A DNA stretch of 64,000 nt from positions 1 to 64,000 of the forward strand of contig CACPPV010000006.1 in NCBI GenBank assembly GCA_902635895.1, written 5' to 3'. Positions 54,929 through 61,973 of this stretch are shown piece by piece. Source of the DNA: an uncultured Bacteroidota bacterium. GTDB taxonomy: Bacteria; Bacteroidota; Bacteroidia; Flavobacteriales; Flavobacteriaceae. The notes under the pieces were generated by a model. The model was not told where the DNA came from. It ran no database searches and was given only the letters and a program-made list of their open reading frames with translations. Positions within the stretch are counted from its first letter, which is position 1. Each line of letters begins with the position of its first letter. The translations under genes were made by a program, and so were the position numbers.

Positions 54929-55357
54929 ATGAGATTATTTAAATACGTTTCACTAATTCTTATTTTAAACTTTATTTCTTGTTCAAAAAATGAAATAATC
55001 AAAAACCCTTATCTTCATGAGGTTTCTTTCGAAAAAGTAATAAATCTTAATCTCCCACAGTACGATAACTTAAATTTTAATGGAGGTGCTTTGTATTTAA
55101 ATTCTGGTGGGATAAAAGGTTTAATATTATTTAATTTTAATAATCAAATTTTCGCCTGGGAAGCAAGTTGTCCTAACCAATATCCTTCCTCATGTTCTAC
55201 CATGGAAATTGAAGGGGTACAATCAATTTGTAATTGCGATAATTATAAATATAGCCTAGCTACTGGACAGTTACTTTCTGGAACAAACGAAAACGCATAT
55301 CCGATGAAAATGTACTTTTCAGAAAAAAATGGTAATTCAGTTCGAATATCAAACTGA
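54929..55357 (+). CDS. Rieske-like lipoprotein lacking the histidine ligands
   Basis: A 142-residue lipoprotein; the signal peptide ends in FISC. The middle resembles a Rieske iron-sulfur fold, but where a CxH and a CxxH pair would bind [2Fe-2S], the sequence shows EASCPNQYPSSC near residue 87 and SICNCDNYKYSLATGQLLSG near 107. Cysteines are retained (C90, C97, C109, C111), but both histidine places are Asn or Asp. I recall similar flavobacterial proteins beside greA, so this is a conserved variant. It may hold a disulfide or a different metal. Its 3' end contains the terminator of the convergent receptor gene. Confidence 0.78.
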   Translation: MRLFKYVSLILILNFISCSKNEIIKNPYLHEVSFEKVINLNLPQYDNLNFNGGALYLNSGGIKGLILFNFNNQIFAWEASCPNQYPSSCSTMEIEGVQSICNCDNYKYSLATGQLLSGTNENAYPMKMYFSEKNGNSVRISN

Positions 55358-55376: not shown

Positions 55377-57551
55377 TTAAAATTTATAATTTAAACCAAA
55401 AGAAATATTTCTTCCCATTTCGTGGATTCCTATAGTTTTGAATCTTGATAAATGATCAAAATATTCTTCATCTAATAAGTTATTGACTGACCAAACAAAA
55501 CCTAATTTATTGTTCGTTAAATTAAACTCATGACTTCCGGAAAAATTTAACAAGAAGTAAGAATCCGTTGCAGTTTCAAACTGAGCTACATTATTTTGCT
55601 TGGATTTAGAAACCAAACTTAATTTATAACTGTTTGAGTCAAAATCTAAGTTAAACGATTGTTTAAATGTAAAAGGAGATATAAAAGGCAAATACCCACC
55701 ATTTGCTAATTCTCCCGAAACATACTCTAAAGATGTTTTAAAAGAAAGCCAATCGATTGAAGTTGATCGAGAATAATATAATTCTCCTCCAAATAAAGAA
55801 GCATCAGCTTGAGTATAGTTGTATACAGGCACAGATCCTCTTGAAGTCCCTGTTGGATTTAAATAAATATAATCGTTAATTGAGTTGTAGAAGATATCTA
55901 TTCCAAAGCTATAATTTGAACCAAATGAACTAATAGAAATATCAGATTGTAAATTCTTCTCTTCACTTAAGTTTTTATCTCCAATTTCATACTTGTTTGT
56001 TCCGTGGTGAATGCCATCAGAAAACAATTCGGATAGATTTGGAGCTCTATATCCACTAGAAAAATTAAGTCTAAAGGTTTTATTTTCTCCAAAATTTCTT
56101 TTAAACCCAACAGAACTTGTAAAGCTGTTAAAATTTTCATTAAAGCTTTCTGTTTCAATCTTTCTATCATCAATTCTTAATCCTAATAAGACATCCCACT
56201 TGGAAGTATGTATGTGCGATAATGCATATAACCCCAAATCTTTCTTTTCAGCATCTGGAATTAATTTTTCATCACCAAAGTTAGTATTGCTTTGCCATAA
56301 CATGTTTGTTCCAAGTACTAATTCAAATTTGTCAGATTTTGGAAAAATGTATTTGAAATCAAAAGTTGTTGTTTCTAAATCCATATTTAAAGCGGCTTCA
56401 TCTCCGTGATCGTCATGATCGTCATGATCGTCATGATCATCATGGTCGTCATCATCGTGATCGTCATGATCGTCATCGTCGTCGTCGTGATCATCATCAC
56501 CATGATCATCATCGTGATCATCGTGATCTCCATGCTCATCGTGATGTCCAAATTCCTTTCTTTTGTTCATGCTGTATCCTATTGTGAATTCAATTTCAGA
56601 TTTGTTATCAAATAATATTCTGTTCTTCCATGAAACCATAGTGTTTAAAAGATCCTGATATGATTTTTCTTCTTCATGATCGTCATGGTCATCATGATCG
56701 TCGTGGTCATCATCATGATCGTCATGATCGTCGTCATCGTGATCATCGTGATCGTCATGATCATCATGATCGTCATGCCCCTCATCTCCATGTGGAATTC
56801 CAATTTCAGAGTCAGAAATGTTTACTCTTAAATCCGAAATAAAGTTGTCAGAACTATACCCTAAACCAAAGTTGAGGTCATTTTGTTTAAAATAAGTGTT
56901 TTCAACTTCGTGATCTGGAGTATTAAAATTATCATTGTCAACCATACTTGCTTGAACAATGTAATTTAATTTATTAAGGTTTCCTTTAACTCCTAAATTA
57001 GTTGTAAACCCACTGTAGTTGGAATTGTAAACTGTCCCTAGTTCAATTTCAGGTCCATCTCCATCATAATAACTATCAGGATTAATGTAAAGAACTCCTC
57101 CCAAGGCATCACTTCCATAAAGAACAGACATTGGACCTTTTATAACTTCAACAGATCCCACTCCAAAGCCTGAAAGATTCATTCCATGTTCGTCTCCCCA
57201 TTGCTGATTTTCAACTCTTATGTTATGACTAAAAACTGTAACACGGTTTGAAGATAATCCTCTTATTACTGGTTTTGATATTCCTGGTCCAGTTGAAATT
57301 ATAGAAATACCTGGAATTTCTTGAATTGCAGCAGATAAATTTTGTCTTTTAATGTAATTTAAATTGTTGAGATTTAATTTACTTACATTGATAACGTTGT
57401 TTTTTAATGACTCTTTAAAAGGAGTAGATACAACTACTTCTGATAATTCAACAGGAACTAATGTATCGTTCTCCTGAGTATTTTGAGCATTAATTGTATT
57501 TATGCTAATAAATAGCATAGCCAAAAAGGCAATTTTTGTAATATTTTTCAT
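55377..57551 (-). CDS. TonB-dependent receptor with two His/Asp-repeat loops, likely zinc
   Basis: A 724-residue outer-membrane receptor. A signal peptide (about 1-22) is followed by a plug (about 35-165, with GISKPVIRGLSSNRVTVFSHN and GPMSVLYGSDALGGV), and a barrel ends in NISFGLNYKF. Two extracellular-type insertions are almost pure Asp/His: residues about 254-293 with 12 His, and 336-383 with 14 His, mostly DDH repeats. They look like metal-trapping loops. The plug and His-rich loops resemble ZnuD-type zinc receptors. A Cys/His-containing exported protein is encoded 42 bases upstream, which supports a transition-metal substrate (zinc favoured, copper or nickel possible). Confidence 0.88.
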   Translation of the reverse strand: MKNITKIAFLAMLFISINTINAQNTQENDTLVPVELSEVVVSTPFKESLKNNVINVSKLNLNNLNYIKRQNLSAAIQEIPGISIISTGPGISKPVIRGLSSNRVTVFSHNIRVENQQWGDEHGMNLSGFGVGSVEVIKGPMSVLYGSDALGGVLYINPDSYYDGDGPEIELGTVYNSNYSGFTTNLGVKGNLNKLNYIVQASMVDNDNFNTPDHEVENTYFKQNDLNFGLGYSSDNFISDLRVNISDSEIGIPHGDEGHDDHDDHDDHDDHDDDDHDDHDDDHDDHDDHDDHEEEKSYQDLLNTMVSWKNRILFDNKSEIEFTIGYSMNKRKEFGHHDEHGDHDDHDDDHGDDDHDDDDDDHDDHDDDDHDDHDDHDDHDDHGDEAALNMDLETTTFDFKYIFPKSDKFELVLGTNMLWQSNTNFGDEKLIPDAEKKDLGLYALSHIHTSKWDVLLGLRIDDRKIETESFNENFNSFTSSVGFKRNFGENKTFRLNFSSGYRAPNLSELFSDGIHHGTNKYEIGDKNLSEEKNLQSDISISSFGSNYSFGIDIFYNSINDYIYLNPTGTSRGSVPVYNYTQADASLFGGELYYSRSTSIDWLSFKTSLEYVSGELANGGYLPFISPFTFKQSFNLDFDSNSYKLSLVSKSKQNNVAQFETATDSYFLLNFSGSHEFNLTNNKLGFVWSVNNLLDEEYFDHLSRFKTIGIHEMGRNISFGLNYKF
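56403..56546 (-). repeat. Asp/His codon repeat region 2
   Basis: Imperfect triplet-based tandem repeats (GAC/GAT and CAT/CAC codons) encoding residues 336-383 of the receptor. The plus strand reads as repeated ATCGTC/ATCATG units. Simple-repeat slippage could alter loop length between strains without shifting frame, since units are multiples of three. Confidence 0.85.
56673..56792 (-). repeat. Asp/His codon repeat region 1
   Basis: A second, separate Asp/His codon repeat encoding residues about 254-293 of the same receptor. The unit mixture (DDH, DDDH) resembles region 2, suggesting they grew by the same slippage or by duplication between loops. Confidence 0.85.
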
Positions 57552-57593: not shown

Positions 57594-57899
57594 TTAACAA
57601 TCTACTGGGGGACCTCTTGAATCAAAATAATTATAAAAATTTGAAAAATGTGTTCTATTATAAACAGCATATTGTTTATAATTGATAAAAAAATCTTTAA
57701 TTAAAAAAGTAGAATCTTCAGAACTAAAATCAGAATTTGCTCTTAAAAAATCACATGTAGAACAACTGATTTCAGCTTCGTGAAAATGAGCGTTTTCTTC
57801 AGAGCAAACAACATGCTCTTCAAATAAATAGTGATTTAAGCCAAAAATGGTTGGAAGGCTTAAAATCCCAATAAGAATTAAGCTAATAACTCTTTTCAC
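57594..57899 (-). CDS. Small exported Cys/His protein paired with the metal receptor
   Basis: A 101-residue protein with an N-terminal hydrophobic signal (about 4-20). A metal-binding-like stretch follows: NHYLFEEHVVCSEENAHFHE and then SCSTCDFL, with Cys32, Cys46, Cys49 and several His. The C-terminus is RGPPVDC. I recall similar RGPP-ending proteins directly upstream of His-rich TonB receptors in flavobacteria, but no name or function. It may be a periplasmic metal chaperone or sensor for the downstream receptor. It starts 18 bases after the thiamine-type receptor stop. Confidence 0.78.
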   Translation of the reverse strand: MKRVISLILIGILSLPTIFGLNHYLFEEHVVCSEENAHFHEAEISCSTCDFLRANSDFSSEDSTFLIKDFFINYKQYAVYNRTHFSNFYNYFDSRGPPVDC

Positions 57900-57917: not shown

Positions 57918-60074
57918 TTAAAACTTAAGGGTTAATCCCAACAAAAAATTTCTAGTAGCTTGTGGATAATACCCAGCTCCATCCAAAGTTGTTACTTGAC
58001 CGGGTGAAGACCATGTGTCATCATAAGTATAATAATATCCATTAGAAACATACTCGTTGTTAAAAACATTATTGACTAATCCTGAAAATATGATTTCGTC
58101 AAAGACTAGATTTGAAATAATCTTGTAACTAAAATTAATATCATTAACAAAGTAGCTATCCAAAATAGAGTTAACAGCGTCAGTATTTCCCATATATTGT
58201 TTTCCAACGTATTTGGATAAAAAACTAATCATAAGATTATTGTTTGGTGAAAAGATTAGTGAATTGGATGAGATTAAATTAGGTGAAAACGAGATGTTAG
58301 TTTTTCCAAAATCAAAAACAGATCCATTAAATTTTGAAAGAATTTTCTTGTTTTTATTACTACTCAATGTAAAATTATTTCTTAATGACAAATTGCTTGA
58401 AAGCTTTAGCTCAAGTTCTGATTCTATTCCAATACGATAACTTGAACCACTATTGGTTCTAATTGGAGAACCCACATCGTCCAATTCTCCTGTTAAAACT
58501 AATTGTTCGTTGTAAAGCATGTAATATGTATTAAGATTGAATCTTAAACCATTTTTTTTATATCTCCATCCAATCTCAAAATCGTTTAGTTGCTCTGGCC
58601 TTATATTTTCATTTGCTTCATAATCACTTCGACTTGGTTCTCGGTTAGCTCTTGAATACGAACCGTATAGTATGGAATTAGGTCTAATCTTGTATGACAA
58701 TCCAAATTTTGGATTAAAAAAACTAAACGATTCATCAATCAACATATTAACAAGATCTGATGTAATTCCACTAGTCTTGTATGTAACATTTCTGAATTGA
58801 ACATCTCCATATAGTTCTAACTCATCGCTTAGATCATAAGATGCTTTAGCAAAAACACTAAAATCTGTTTTTTTTCCATTTCCATCGTAATATCTATCTC
58901 TGATAGAACTGTCTTTACTAAAATTCCTTGCCCATACAATTTCACCAAAATGATCTCCACTGTAAGTACTGTAGGATGAATTAAATATCATAGCTAACCT
59001 ACTCCCAGTATATTTAGCTGATGCATTAATTACATAAAAGTCATTATCTAACCAACGTCTTCTAATTAAATCTGTAGTTCCTGTTTCGTTTCCATCTGAA
59101 TCAATATCTGATATTAAAATACCCCCATAAGTTCCAACAGAATCGTCCTCCCTATATTGTTCAAAATAACCTCTTCCATAGGTATAATTTAAACCTAGAT
59201 TTGTAGACCAATTTTGATTTAGTTTTTGATTCCAATGAAACTGATAATGATCTTGTTTGTAATTATCAATTTCATTTTCATAAGTATATGGATTTTGTCT
59301 TCGGTTTTCAAGCAATTGTTCTTTACTTAATCCATACCAGGATTGGTAAGTTTTTTCATGACCTCCAAATGAAAGAGCTTTAATAAGGGTGTTGCCTTTA
59401 CTATAAGTCCCCTGAAGAAAATAAGATTTTAAGTCTGAAAAAGCCCTATCAATGTATCCATCAGAATCAATTTTAGAAAGTCTTCCCGAAAGTTCAAACG
59501 ACTGGTTTAATTTTCCTGTACTAAACTTTACAGTATGTTTAAGCGTGTTATAACTTCCCACAGAGTTAGATATCTCTGCGTAGGGGGTTTCTGAAATTGC
59601 ATCAGTTAATATGTTTATACTTGCTCCAAAGGCCCCAGATCCATTTGTTGATGTACCAACTCCTCTTTGAACCTGAAGACTTTCTACAGACGATGTAAAA
59701 TCTGGGAGATTGACCCAAAAAGTACCATGAGACTCCGGATCATTGAATGGTATACCGTTGATTGTAATGTTAGTTGATTGAGCACTAACTCCTCGTATTC
59801 TAATTCCAGTGTAACCAATACCTGCTCCTGCGTCAGATGTTGTCACAACTGAGGGTAAGTAATTTAACAAAACTGGCAAGTCTTGACCTAAGTTTCTAGT
59901 TGATAGTTCTTTTTTGTAAACATTTGAATGAGTAATAGGAGAGGTATTGTTTACTCTTATTGATTGAACGACAACCTCATCTAATATTTGTTTAGTTCCT
60001 TGAATTGTATCTTTTACTTGTTGAGAATAAATATTAATTGATAACAATATCAAAAAGTATAGAGCTTTTTTCAT
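57918..60074 (-). CDS. TPP-riboswitch-controlled TonB-dependent receptor (thiamine uptake)
   Basis: A 718-residue outer-membrane receptor. The signal peptide (about 1-18) is followed by the TonB box/plug region (about 25-160, LDEVVVQSIRVNNTSPITHSN; PSVVTTSDAGAGIGYTGIRIRG; VESLQVQRGVGTSTNGSGAFG), then a barrel ending in NFLLGLTLKF. The plug alone would suggest an iron receptor. The TPP riboswitch in its leader indicates that it instead imports thiamine or a thiamine precursor. Such TPP-regulated outer-membrane proteins are known from comparative work on Bacteroidota. Two further genes on the same strand follow closely. Confidence 0.9.
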   Translation of the reverse strand: MKKALYFLILLSINIYSQQVKDTIQGTKQILDEVVVQSIRVNNTSPITHSNVYKKELSTRNLGQDLPVLLNYLPSVVTTSDAGAGIGYTGIRIRGVSAQSTNITINGIPFNDPESHGTFWVNLPDFTSSVESLQVQRGVGTSTNGSGAFGASINILTDAISETPYAEISNSVGSYNTLKHTVKFSTGKLNQSFELSGRLSKIDSDGYIDRAFSDLKSYFLQGTYSKGNTLIKALSFGGHEKTYQSWYGLSKEQLLENRRQNPYTYENEIDNYKQDHYQFHWNQKLNQNWSTNLGLNYTYGRGYFEQYREDDSVGTYGGILISDIDSDGNETGTTDLIRRRWLDNDFYVINASAKYTGSRLAMIFNSSYSTYSGDHFGEIVWARNFSKDSSIRDRYYDGNGKKTDFSVFAKASYDLSDELELYGDVQFRNVTYKTSGITSDLVNMLIDESFSFFNPKFGLSYKIRPNSILYGSYSRANREPSRSDYEANENIRPEQLNDFEIGWRYKKNGLRFNLNTYYMLYNEQLVLTGELDDVGSPIRTNSGSSYRIGIESELELKLSSNLSLRNNFTLSSNKNKKILSKFNGSVFDFGKTNISFSPNLISSNSLIFSPNNNLMISFLSKYVGKQYMGNTDAVNSILDSYFVNDINFSYKIISNLVFDEIIFSGLVNNVFNNEYVSNGYYYTYDDTWSSPGQVTTLDGAGYYPQATRNFLLGLTLKF

Positions 60075-60109
60075 ATTTAAAAAAATTTATAGTGGGGATA
60101 AAACAGATG

Positions 60110-60182
60110 ATAACAATTTTCCTCTCCAAAATTACTTGGCAGGTTCATTGGGTATAATCTCAGCCGTAGCACCCCATTTATT
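60110..60182 (-). ncRNA. TPP (thiamine pyrophosphate) riboswitch
   Basis: The minus-strand RNA reads GGGGUGCUACGGCUGAGA followed by UUAUACCCAAUGAACCUG, the unmistakable THI-box core. The 3' half has CCAAGUAAUUUUGGAGAGG. CUGAGA is at 60163-60158 and ACCUG at 60144-60140. A downstream AUCCCCA (60099-60093) can pair with the aptamer's UGGGG (60176-60172), a possible switch helix. Located in the leader of the TonB receptor gene, it should turn expression off when cellular TPP is high. Confidence 0.93.
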
Positions 60183-60188
60183 ATATTT

Positions 60189-60196
60189 CAAAGATA
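60189..60196 (-). promoter_or_regulatory. Promoter -7 element for the TPP-controlled receptor
   Basis: TATCTTTG on the minus strand matches TAnnTTTG exactly and lies between the kinase stop and the riboswitch. RNA would start near 60183, right at the aptamer. A possible TTG -33 is 24 bases upstream, longer than usual. Confidence 0.6.
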
Positions 60197-60208
60197 ATGA
60201 TATTGTTA

Positions 60209-60772
60209 CTATATATCTAGCAACTTATTTATTTCTTTTATTGCTGTTTCTAATCTGTAACTTTTAGGTCCGCTTACTAAAATATATGGTTTATTGTATT
60301 TATTTAAAGTTTCTTTAAAAGCATCAAACATTTTTTGCCTTTCTAAAGGTTTATCTCTTAAATCATCTTTTTCCCAGGGAACATCGATGTCGGTTAGAAT
60401 ATACAAATCGTAATTGTTCTTAAGAGCATATTTTTCTAAAATTGGGTCACAATAACCATCATAATAGGTCTCAGAATAAACTTTAGTTTCTAAAAGATCT
60501 GTGTCGCATATAAGTATTCTATTAGCCAGTTTTGAAAGTTGATTTTCCAATTTTATTTGTCCTTTTGCTATTGGAAGTAAATCTTTAAGTTCACAAATCT
60601 TTTTTTCATTATCCCATTTTCTTTGCAGGTAATCTCTAGCATATTCTTTTACCCAATTAGTATTATAATAGTCTGCAAGATCTTTTGAAAGAGTAGTTTT
60701 ACCTGAGGATTCAGGTCCAAAAAGAACTACTTTTAAGCAGCTTGATTTGATTTGTTTAAGATTTTTTTCCAT
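60209..60772 (-). CDS. NadR-like P-loop kinase
   Basis: A 187-residue AAA/P-loop protein resembling the C-terminal ribosylnicotinamide kinase domain of NadR. The Walker A is FGPESSGKTTLSKDLADYY near residue 18, and CDTDLLETKVYSETYYDGYCDP near 89 is the substrate region. KDDLRDKPLERQKMFDAF near 135 fits the lid. It overlaps the PnuC gene by 40 bases, so the two are made together. The likely job is phosphorylating the vitamin carried in by PnuC, either nicotinamide riboside (NadR-like) or thiamine. The riboswitch downstream points to thiamine without proving it. Confidence 0.82.
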   Translation of the reverse strand: MEKNLKQIKSSCLKVVLFGPESSGKTTLSKDLADYYNTNWVKEYARDYLQRKWDNEKKICELKDLLPIAKGQIKLENQLSKLANRILICDTDLLETKVYSETYYDGYCDPILEKYALKNNYDLYILTDIDVPWEKDDLRDKPLERQKMFDAFKETLNKYNKPYILVSGPKSYRLETAIKEINKLLDI

Positions 60773-61353
60773 GAATAATAACCAGAGATAGCAATTATAG
60801 TAAAAATAAAATATTGTAAACTAGTAAATGTTAATCCTTTGTAAAAATATAAGGGAACCGATATTACATCTCCAATAATCCAAAAAATCCAATTTTCAAT
60901 CTTTCTTTTAGCCATTAACCACATTCCAACAAAGAAAATCGCAGTAGTAATATTATCAATGTATGACGTTAAAGACCCCCACTTATCAAAATAATTATAG
61001 ATTCCGTACACAAAAATCAGAGAAGAAATAAATATAGATAAGGATATTTTTTTTTCATAGTTACTAATCTTCGATATGGGAGTTACTATGTTATTTTTTT
61101 TACGAGTCCAAATATACCATCCATAAATACTCATTATAAAATAATATACATTTATCATCATATCACCCAATAATCCCCACTTAAAGAGTAAATAAGTAAA
61201 TATTGACGTTGAAATCATTCCCGTTGGATAAACTAGTATATTATTGTTTTTTGAAAACCAAACACTTAATAAGCCAAAGATTACAGCTACGATTTCAAAA
61301 AATATGTCCAGTTCATTATATTGTGAATATTGTTGAAATAAAAAATCAAACAT
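60733..61353 (-). CDS. PnuC-family vitamin transporter
   Basis: A seven-helix inner-membrane facilitator of 206 residues, starting at the ATG at 61353, 2 bases after the preceding stop. An upstream TTG-like start at 61383 would lie inside the PPTase gene. Family segments are WFSKNNNILVYPTGMISTSIF near 33, WGLLGDMMINVYYFIMSIYGWYIW near 58 and KIENWIFWIIGDVISVPLYFYKGL near 150. PnuC moves nicotinamide riboside; the PnuT branch moves thiamine. Proximity to a TPP-controlled TonB receptor suggests PnuT, but no residue decides it. Confidence 0.88.
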   Translation of the reverse strand: MFDFLFQQYSQYNELDIFFEIVAVIFGLLSVWFSKNNNILVYPTGMISTSIFTYLLFKWGLLGDMMINVYYFIMSIYGWYIWTRKKNNIVTPISKISNYEKKISLSIFISSLIFVYGIYNYFDKWGSLTSYIDNITTAIFFVGMWLMAKRKIENWIFWIIGDVISVPLYFYKGLTFTSLQYFIFTIIAISGYYSWKKILNKSNQAA

Positions 61354-61355
61354 AA

Positions 61356-61973
61356 TTAATCCATAATTTGTGCTGTAGAACAAATGTAATTAGAAAACTT
61401 CATGAGATCTACAAGATAGTTTTCAGAAAATTCATTTTTATAAATTCTAACTATTGCTTTGTTATTTTTTAGAGATTCAATAATTATATTTTTTTTAAAA
61501 TCAATACTGTCATATCCAAAAGCTTTAAAAACTGATTCTTTTATAGTCCAGGCTTTAGTAATACTTTCTACACTCTTGAAATCAAACAACTCCAATTCAT
61601 GTTTAGAAATAAATTTAGGCCAAATGTTTAAAATTTTATCTCTAAACTTTTCAATATCAATTCCAATTTTTTTTTTTGAATAGTAGATTCCAGAATATTG
61701 AAAAGAATGGGTTATTGAAATGAATCCTTTATGAAGAGTTGGCTTGCCAAACTCATCATAATTTAAATCGTCAAAAGTTAAATTTAATTCTTCTAATAAT
61801 TTTAGTATACTCAAAAATTCAATTTGTTTAGTTTCACTTTTAATGGAACTTAACTTTAGATTATAAGAAGAGTCTTGTTTTAAAGCCGAAATTAGTTCTT
61901 GCTTACCTTCTTTAATGTTCCAAATCACAAGATGGTTGTTCTTATGATCGCTGAATTTCTTGTATAATGGCAT
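61356..61973 (-). CDS. 4'-phosphopantetheinyl transferase (Sfp/AcpT type)
   Basis: Transfers phosphopantetheine from CoA to carrier proteins. The 205 residues carry both Sfp-family motifs: IGIDIEKFRDKI near residue 114 (Mg-binding) and AWTIKESVFKAFGYDSIDF near 155. It may activate the fatty-acid acyl carrier protein or a secondary-metabolism carrier. In this window it is the first gene of a unit with pnuC and the kinase. Confidence 0.9.
   Translation of the reverse strand: MPLYKKFSDHKNNHLVIWNIKEGKQELISALKQDSSYNLKLSSIKSETKQIEFLSILKLLEELNLTFDDLNYDEFGKPTLHKGFISITHSFQYSGIYYSKKKIGIDIEKFRDKILNIWPKFISKHELELFDFKSVESITKAWTIKESVFKAFGYDSIDFKKNIIIESLKNNKAIVRIYKNEFSENYLVDLMKFSNYICSTAQIMD

Follow-up and report, generated by a model that had tools for sequence, protein, structure and literature searches.

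The 64,000-nucleotide stretch of DNA from a marine-type flavobacterium (Flavobacteriaceae) analyzed here (hereafter, the window) encodes a ZnuD-like TonB-dependent receptor in which two neighboring, predicted extracellular loops, L3 and L4, consist almost entirely of His and Asp. We consider it likely that this protein takes up a divalent transition metal, free or loosely bound and most probably zinc, and that the two loops serve as an antenna. The relevant features are listed in Table 1.

Table 1. Features of the receptor locus, in window coordinates
Feature	Coordinates	Strand	Description and basis
ZnuD-like TonB-dependent receptor, 724 aa	55377..57551	-	Plug and 22-strand-type barrel; Pfam, PDB sequence and fold matches
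Loop 1, aa 254-293, predicted extracellular loop L3	56673..56792	-	24 Asp, 12 His, 2 Gly, 2 Glu; placed on His/Asp cluster 1 of ZnuD L3 by alignment
Loop 2, aa 336-383, predicted extracellular loop L4	56403..56546	-	30 Asp, 14 His, 3 Gly, 1 Glu; many other Flavobacteriaceae also have a His/acid-rich L4
Glu121-His122, plug-apical pair	57186..57191	-	Matches ZnuD Asp99-His100 in the alignment with 4RDR
Glu333, end of strand 7, immediately before loop 2	56553..56555	-	Kept in at least 90% of relatives
His515, loop L6	56007..56009	-	Matches ZnuD His499 in the alignment with 4RDR
Small Cys/His protein, 101 aa, C-terminal RGPP	57594..57899	-	Conserved upstream gene, 42 bp from the receptor

Family identity of the receptor

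Two Pfam domains scored over the cut-off in the receptor, Plug (PF07715, 58.5 bits) and TonB_dep_Rec_b-barrel (PF00593, 98.4 bits). ZnuD was the top phmmer match in the PDB (6.6e-20) and also came first, at nearly full length, in a profile search (6.3e-36), with the heme receptor PhuR second and the copper receptor OprC behind. When the AlphaFold2 model was compared to the PDB using Foldseek, ranks 1-4 were all ZnuD entries, and OprC formed the second group. The ZnuD model of NCBIfam (NF038289) was the best among the models of that collection but, at 156.8 bits, the score fell under the curated cut-off of 950 bits; hence, we refer to this receptor as ZnuD-like rather than ZnuD. When the structures are aligned, the identity between the two proteins is about 16%. 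Two relatives in the family (L018 and L036) carry an N-terminal CarboxypepD_reg-like domain that the receptor in the window lacks, which may point to streamlining.

A heme or hemoglobin receptor, with acidic His loops serving another purpose, appears highly improbable. The second rank of PhuR in the profile search, the match to the TonB heme family TIGR01785 (132.2 bits), and a YRAPNLSEL...H...GDKNL region resembling the heme-receptor motif all speak for such a receptor, but the TIGR01785 score is under both the cut-off of that model (316.85) and the score of the ZnuD model, ZnuD is the nearest fold, and pure His/Asp loops suit metal ions better than heme. ZnuD itself was formerly misnamed a heme receptor because of such motifs (PMC4557270).

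The choice among metals rests on similar comparisons. OprC from Pseudomonas aeruginosa, likewise a metal-ion TonB-dependent receptor, is the next relative by both fold and sequence, Cu, Ni, and Co are also bound by His-rich tracts, and the Met residues next to His in both loops of one relative (L034) would suit copper. However, ZnuD ranked above OprC in every comparison (127 vs 74 bits in the profile search), and the receptor contains not a single cysteine in its 724 residues, in contrast to the copper site of OprC, which is made of Cys and Met. To our knowledge, no His/Asp tracts have been noted for OprC. An antenna of the same kind for which the physiological metal is copper (or nickel or cobalt) is accordingly considered unlikely. 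We infer that the metal is zinc rather than copper, that the loops bind it and hand it over to a buried site, that transport is driven by TonB, and that the receptor is regulated by metal.

Two His/Asp tracts in neighboring extracellular loops

A recount confirmed the residue ranges, the 12 and 14 His residues, and the nearly pure Asp/His composition reported for the two tracts in the first-pass annotation. Within positions 56403-56792, the tracts are separated by ordinary sequence (residues 294-335) that comprises two barrel strands and a turn. Tandem Repeats Finder delineated one array from 56405 to 56528 and another from 56674 to 56777 (periods of 6-33, 61-88% matches); the longest perfect array is 32 bp, with a 9-bp unit, and the longest exact repeat of the region is 23 bp, so that the description of these repeats as imperfect stands. 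The pattern CAY-GAY-GAY-CAY-GAY-GAY, which codes for HDDHDD, occurs 12 times in the 1.32-Mb assembly (68% complete), exclusively within the two loops, compared to 0 occurrences in the backwards control; together with the independently detected arrays, this excludes chance. The third codon positions of the loops are mixed, with 28 of the 80 Asp/His codons ending in C and 52 in T, whereas the first and second positions remain those of His, Asp, Glu, and Gly, except for one Lys at the edge. This combination indicates that the tracts are old and are kept by selection on the protein.

The AlphaFold2 model, built with 53 related sequences (mean pLDDT of 83.6), places the tracts between strands 237-251 and 298-313 (loop 1) and between strands 319-334 and 388-402 (loop 2). 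The pLDDT falls below 50 only in the two tracts and at the N-terminus, and accordingly, the tracts are predicted to be disordered. Counting the strands from the plug identifies them as the adjacent extracellular loops L3 and L4. The profile alignment, which is independent of the model, puts loop 1 on the ZnuD segment GLPAHSHEYDD, that is, His/Asp cluster 1 of its L3. Structure prediction and alignment thus show the tracts to be located in L3 and L4, on the extracellular side of the modeled barrel as the first-pass annotation had proposed, and not facing the periplasm.

In ZnuD, L3 contains two His/Asp clusters, and both cadmium sites and simulations show this loop collecting metal (PMC4557270); these His/Asp stretches were already noted when the protein was discovered (PMC2895646). 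Both ZnuD clusters, of about 11 residues, lie inside L3, whereas here two loops, L3 and L4, of 40-48 residues are nearly all His/Asp; the cysteine pair of ZnuD L3 (PMC2895646) has no counterpart in the window receptor. A survey of His-rich low-complexity regions in bacterial metal proteins already records such regions for certain TonB-dependent receptors from Flavobacteria and gamma-proteobacteria and, in the passages considered, gives no loop placement, link to ZnuD, or comparison of lengths between species (PMC6821194). What is new here is the degree and the arrangement: two separate, long, nearly pure His/Asp loops that are adjacent to one another and vary between close species.

A putative buried metal site and a proposed mechanism

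The buried site of ZnuD consists of Asp99, His100, Glu340, and His499, and is reached by metal arriving from L3 (PMC4557270). Two of these four ligands are matched exactly in the receptor, by His122, which is invariant across 53 relatives, and by His515, which is kept in at least 90% of them; Asp99 is replaced by Glu121. Glu333 is a possible counterpart of Glu340, a guess on our part given that the profile alignment is gapped at this position. If this assignment is right, loop 2 starts near the pocket, which would fit the entry path shared by the two loops that was suggested in the first-pass annotation.

The receptor resembles ZnuD from Neisseria meningitidis (4RDR, 4RDT, and 4RVW) in being its best sequence and fold match, in having a His/Asp-rich L3 in the equivalent place, and in two site histidines, and the mechanism of capture followed by transfer is presumably common to both. 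Given that the L3 clusters of ZnuD catch zinc and that two site ligands align exactly, the interpretation of the loops as metal-capturing is sound by analogy and mostly known in kind from ZnuD. Under the proposed mechanism, the disordered L3 and L4, side by side above the mouth of the barrel, would form a high-capacity antenna in which the 26 His and 54 Asp residues hold metal with low affinity and rapid exchange, thereby increasing its local concentration. The metal would then be handed over to the buried site formed by Glu121 and His122 of the plug, His515 of L6, and perhaps Glu333, and opening of the plug by TonB would release it into the periplasm. Over evolutionary time, the loops would now and then lose or gain repeat segments in frame, with selection retaining the His and acidic residues. 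A point against an antenna is that, in seawater, Asp-rich loops would be largely occupied by Mg and Ca.

If this mechanism is right, evolution can turn the "fishing net" loop of a zinc receptor into long, nearly pure metal-binding tracts in two adjacent loops, and the related species comprise a natural series of loop sizes for gauging how much a disordered antenna helps in the capture of trace metals. It would be relevant to bacteria in which outer-membrane zinc uptake is little studied.

Variation in loop length

In the genus to which the window belongs and two near relatives, L3 ranges from 16 to 51 residues and L4 from 21 to 50 residues; with one genome per species compared, this variation is between species. 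In meningococci, by contrast, ZnuD is 97-99% conserved. The lengths of L3 and L4 are correlated (r = 0.86) across 13 species that are related and hence do not represent independent points. In most close pairs, both loops change in the same direction: L3/L4 lengths are 42/50 in the window compared to 21/33 in L004, and 51/49 in L008 compared to 16/21 in L016, and the same holds for L009/L010 and L034/L035; in the L011/L012 pair, a single loop differs. This joint change in length across species suggests a shared role of the two loops, although common inheritance can explain part of the trend.

Compared to the window, the closest relative (L004) lacks 63 bp in L3, in one gap, and 51 bp in L4, in gaps of 42 and 9 bp. 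Such in-frame gaps between otherwise closely similar genes indicate that loop length changes in frame, as anticipated in the first-pass annotation, and fairly recently, at least between species. The proposal that triplet slippage tunes metal capture is not supported: the third positions are scrambled, tandem memory at synonymous sites is weak in most loops, and the closest relative differs by whole segments rather than by single triplets. Of 26 loops, just a few stood out for such synonymous tandem memory (L3 of L034, L009, L035, and L012, and L4 of L013), and L4 of the window was marginal (p = 0.04), all without correction for multiple tests. The length data are accounted for if segments between short direct repeats are lost or gained from time to time. 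The DNA identity between the window and L004 is 98% ahead of loop 1, drops to 92-93% beyond it, and is 93% past loop 2; the drop may reflect recombination at the repeats.

Gene conversion between L3 and L4 was considered and rejected. At matched residues of L3 and L4, agreement of the third positions does not exceed expectation, and DNA sharing between the two loops is barely greater within a species than between species (17.1 vs 14.9 bp, p = 0.02), so that recent exchange is unsupported. The longest peptide common to L3 and L4 is longer within species (13.2) than between species (7.7), but the distributions of His spacing do not differ clearly (p = 0.10), and these comparisons are uncorrected for phylogeny; we therefore make no claim of matched His spacing in the two loops of a species.

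Both loops are shortened in L004 and L016, where His was additionally lost by substitution. This loss, and a longest exact repeat of 23 bp in the region, make assembly collapse an unlikely cause of short loops, although it may apply to some of the draft genomes. The shrinkage of both loops in these two species, the wide length range, and the low complexity of disordered loops could alternatively suggest that repeat instability produced the tracts incidentally, in loops that tolerate them, and that they do little for the cell. We find this very unlikely because neutral decay would convert the codons, by single transitions, to those for Asn and Tyr, whereas the first and second positions are held against a background of mixed third positions (28 of 80 ending in C), and the same composition recurs throughout the genus, in both L034 and L035, and, in the case of L4, in isolate genomes from further genera.

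Distribution among Flavobacteriaceae

Among 110 receptors compared, a His/acid-rich L4 was found in many Flavobacteriaceae, isolate genomes among them (Maribacter, Polaribacter, Hyunsoonleella, Christiangramia, Lacinutrix, and others), and was absent from the Flavobacterium species in this set. The named carrier genera are mostly marine, and those lacking the loop are mostly freshwater or soil Flavobacterium; because Flavobacterium is essentially one clade, this contrast is a hint rather than a test. His-rich L3 tracts are restricted to the genus represented in the window, L034, and L035, which form one clade with full support in the tree (the ordinary loops with few His residues in L084 and L088, labeled L3H in the tree, are not counted as tracts). 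Thus, the enrichment of L4 is probably older, whereas the L3 tract was likely gained later and contracted in L016. Many relatives without such loops, for example, Flavobacterium species, retain the pocket, which implies that the core is conserved, whereas the loops are an accessory feature that is not essential to the family. In L034 (8001-10112), the two loops share an identical 17-residue peptide, and the Met residues occur in the context HDDHMDHDD, which may reflect another metal, such as copper.

A broader scenario, which we deem unlikely, is that the two loops make up one coupled antenna, the size of which is adjusted jointly in evolution, with L3 gained in a streamlined lineage, both loops tracking, perhaps, the scarcity of zinc in surface seawater, and the RGPP Cys/His protein (see below) as the partner.

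The RGPP gene and genomic context

The small protein encoded upstream of the receptor has a hydrophobic segment at its N-terminus, a conserved pattern of His and Cys, and an RGPP or RAPP end, and is found in the same place across Flavobacteriaceae. Of the loci retrieved, 31 have a gene of this type ahead of the receptor, as do nine loci from the same genus; searches of Pfam and NCBIfam yielded no family match. Within 40 bases before the start of the RGPP gene, a TAnnTTTG box, which we take to be the usual Bacteroidota -7 promoter element, is present in 18 of the 31 loci, compared to 0.9 expected, suggesting that the RGPP gene and the receptor often form a pair with its own promoter. If the antenna mechanism is right, it points to an unnamed family of small proteins tied to such receptors.

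Elsewhere in the genome, a ZIP-family inner-membrane metal transporter is encoded next to a DtxR-type regulator, and there is one Fur-family regulator; the transporter favors the metal-uptake interpretation. That ZnuA was not found counts against it, although the assembly is only 68% complete. On the other side of the receptor, a convergent gene (54929-55357, + strand) encodes a small lipoprotein without a Pfam match, in which the pattern CPNQYP...CNCDNYKYS recalls a Rieske-like fold. At 57918-61383 (- strand), a second TonB-dependent receptor is encoded downstream of genes for a PnuC-type NMN transporter and a NadR-like AAA protein (Pfam NMN_transporter and AAA_28, respectively), possibly a vitamin B3-type uptake cluster.
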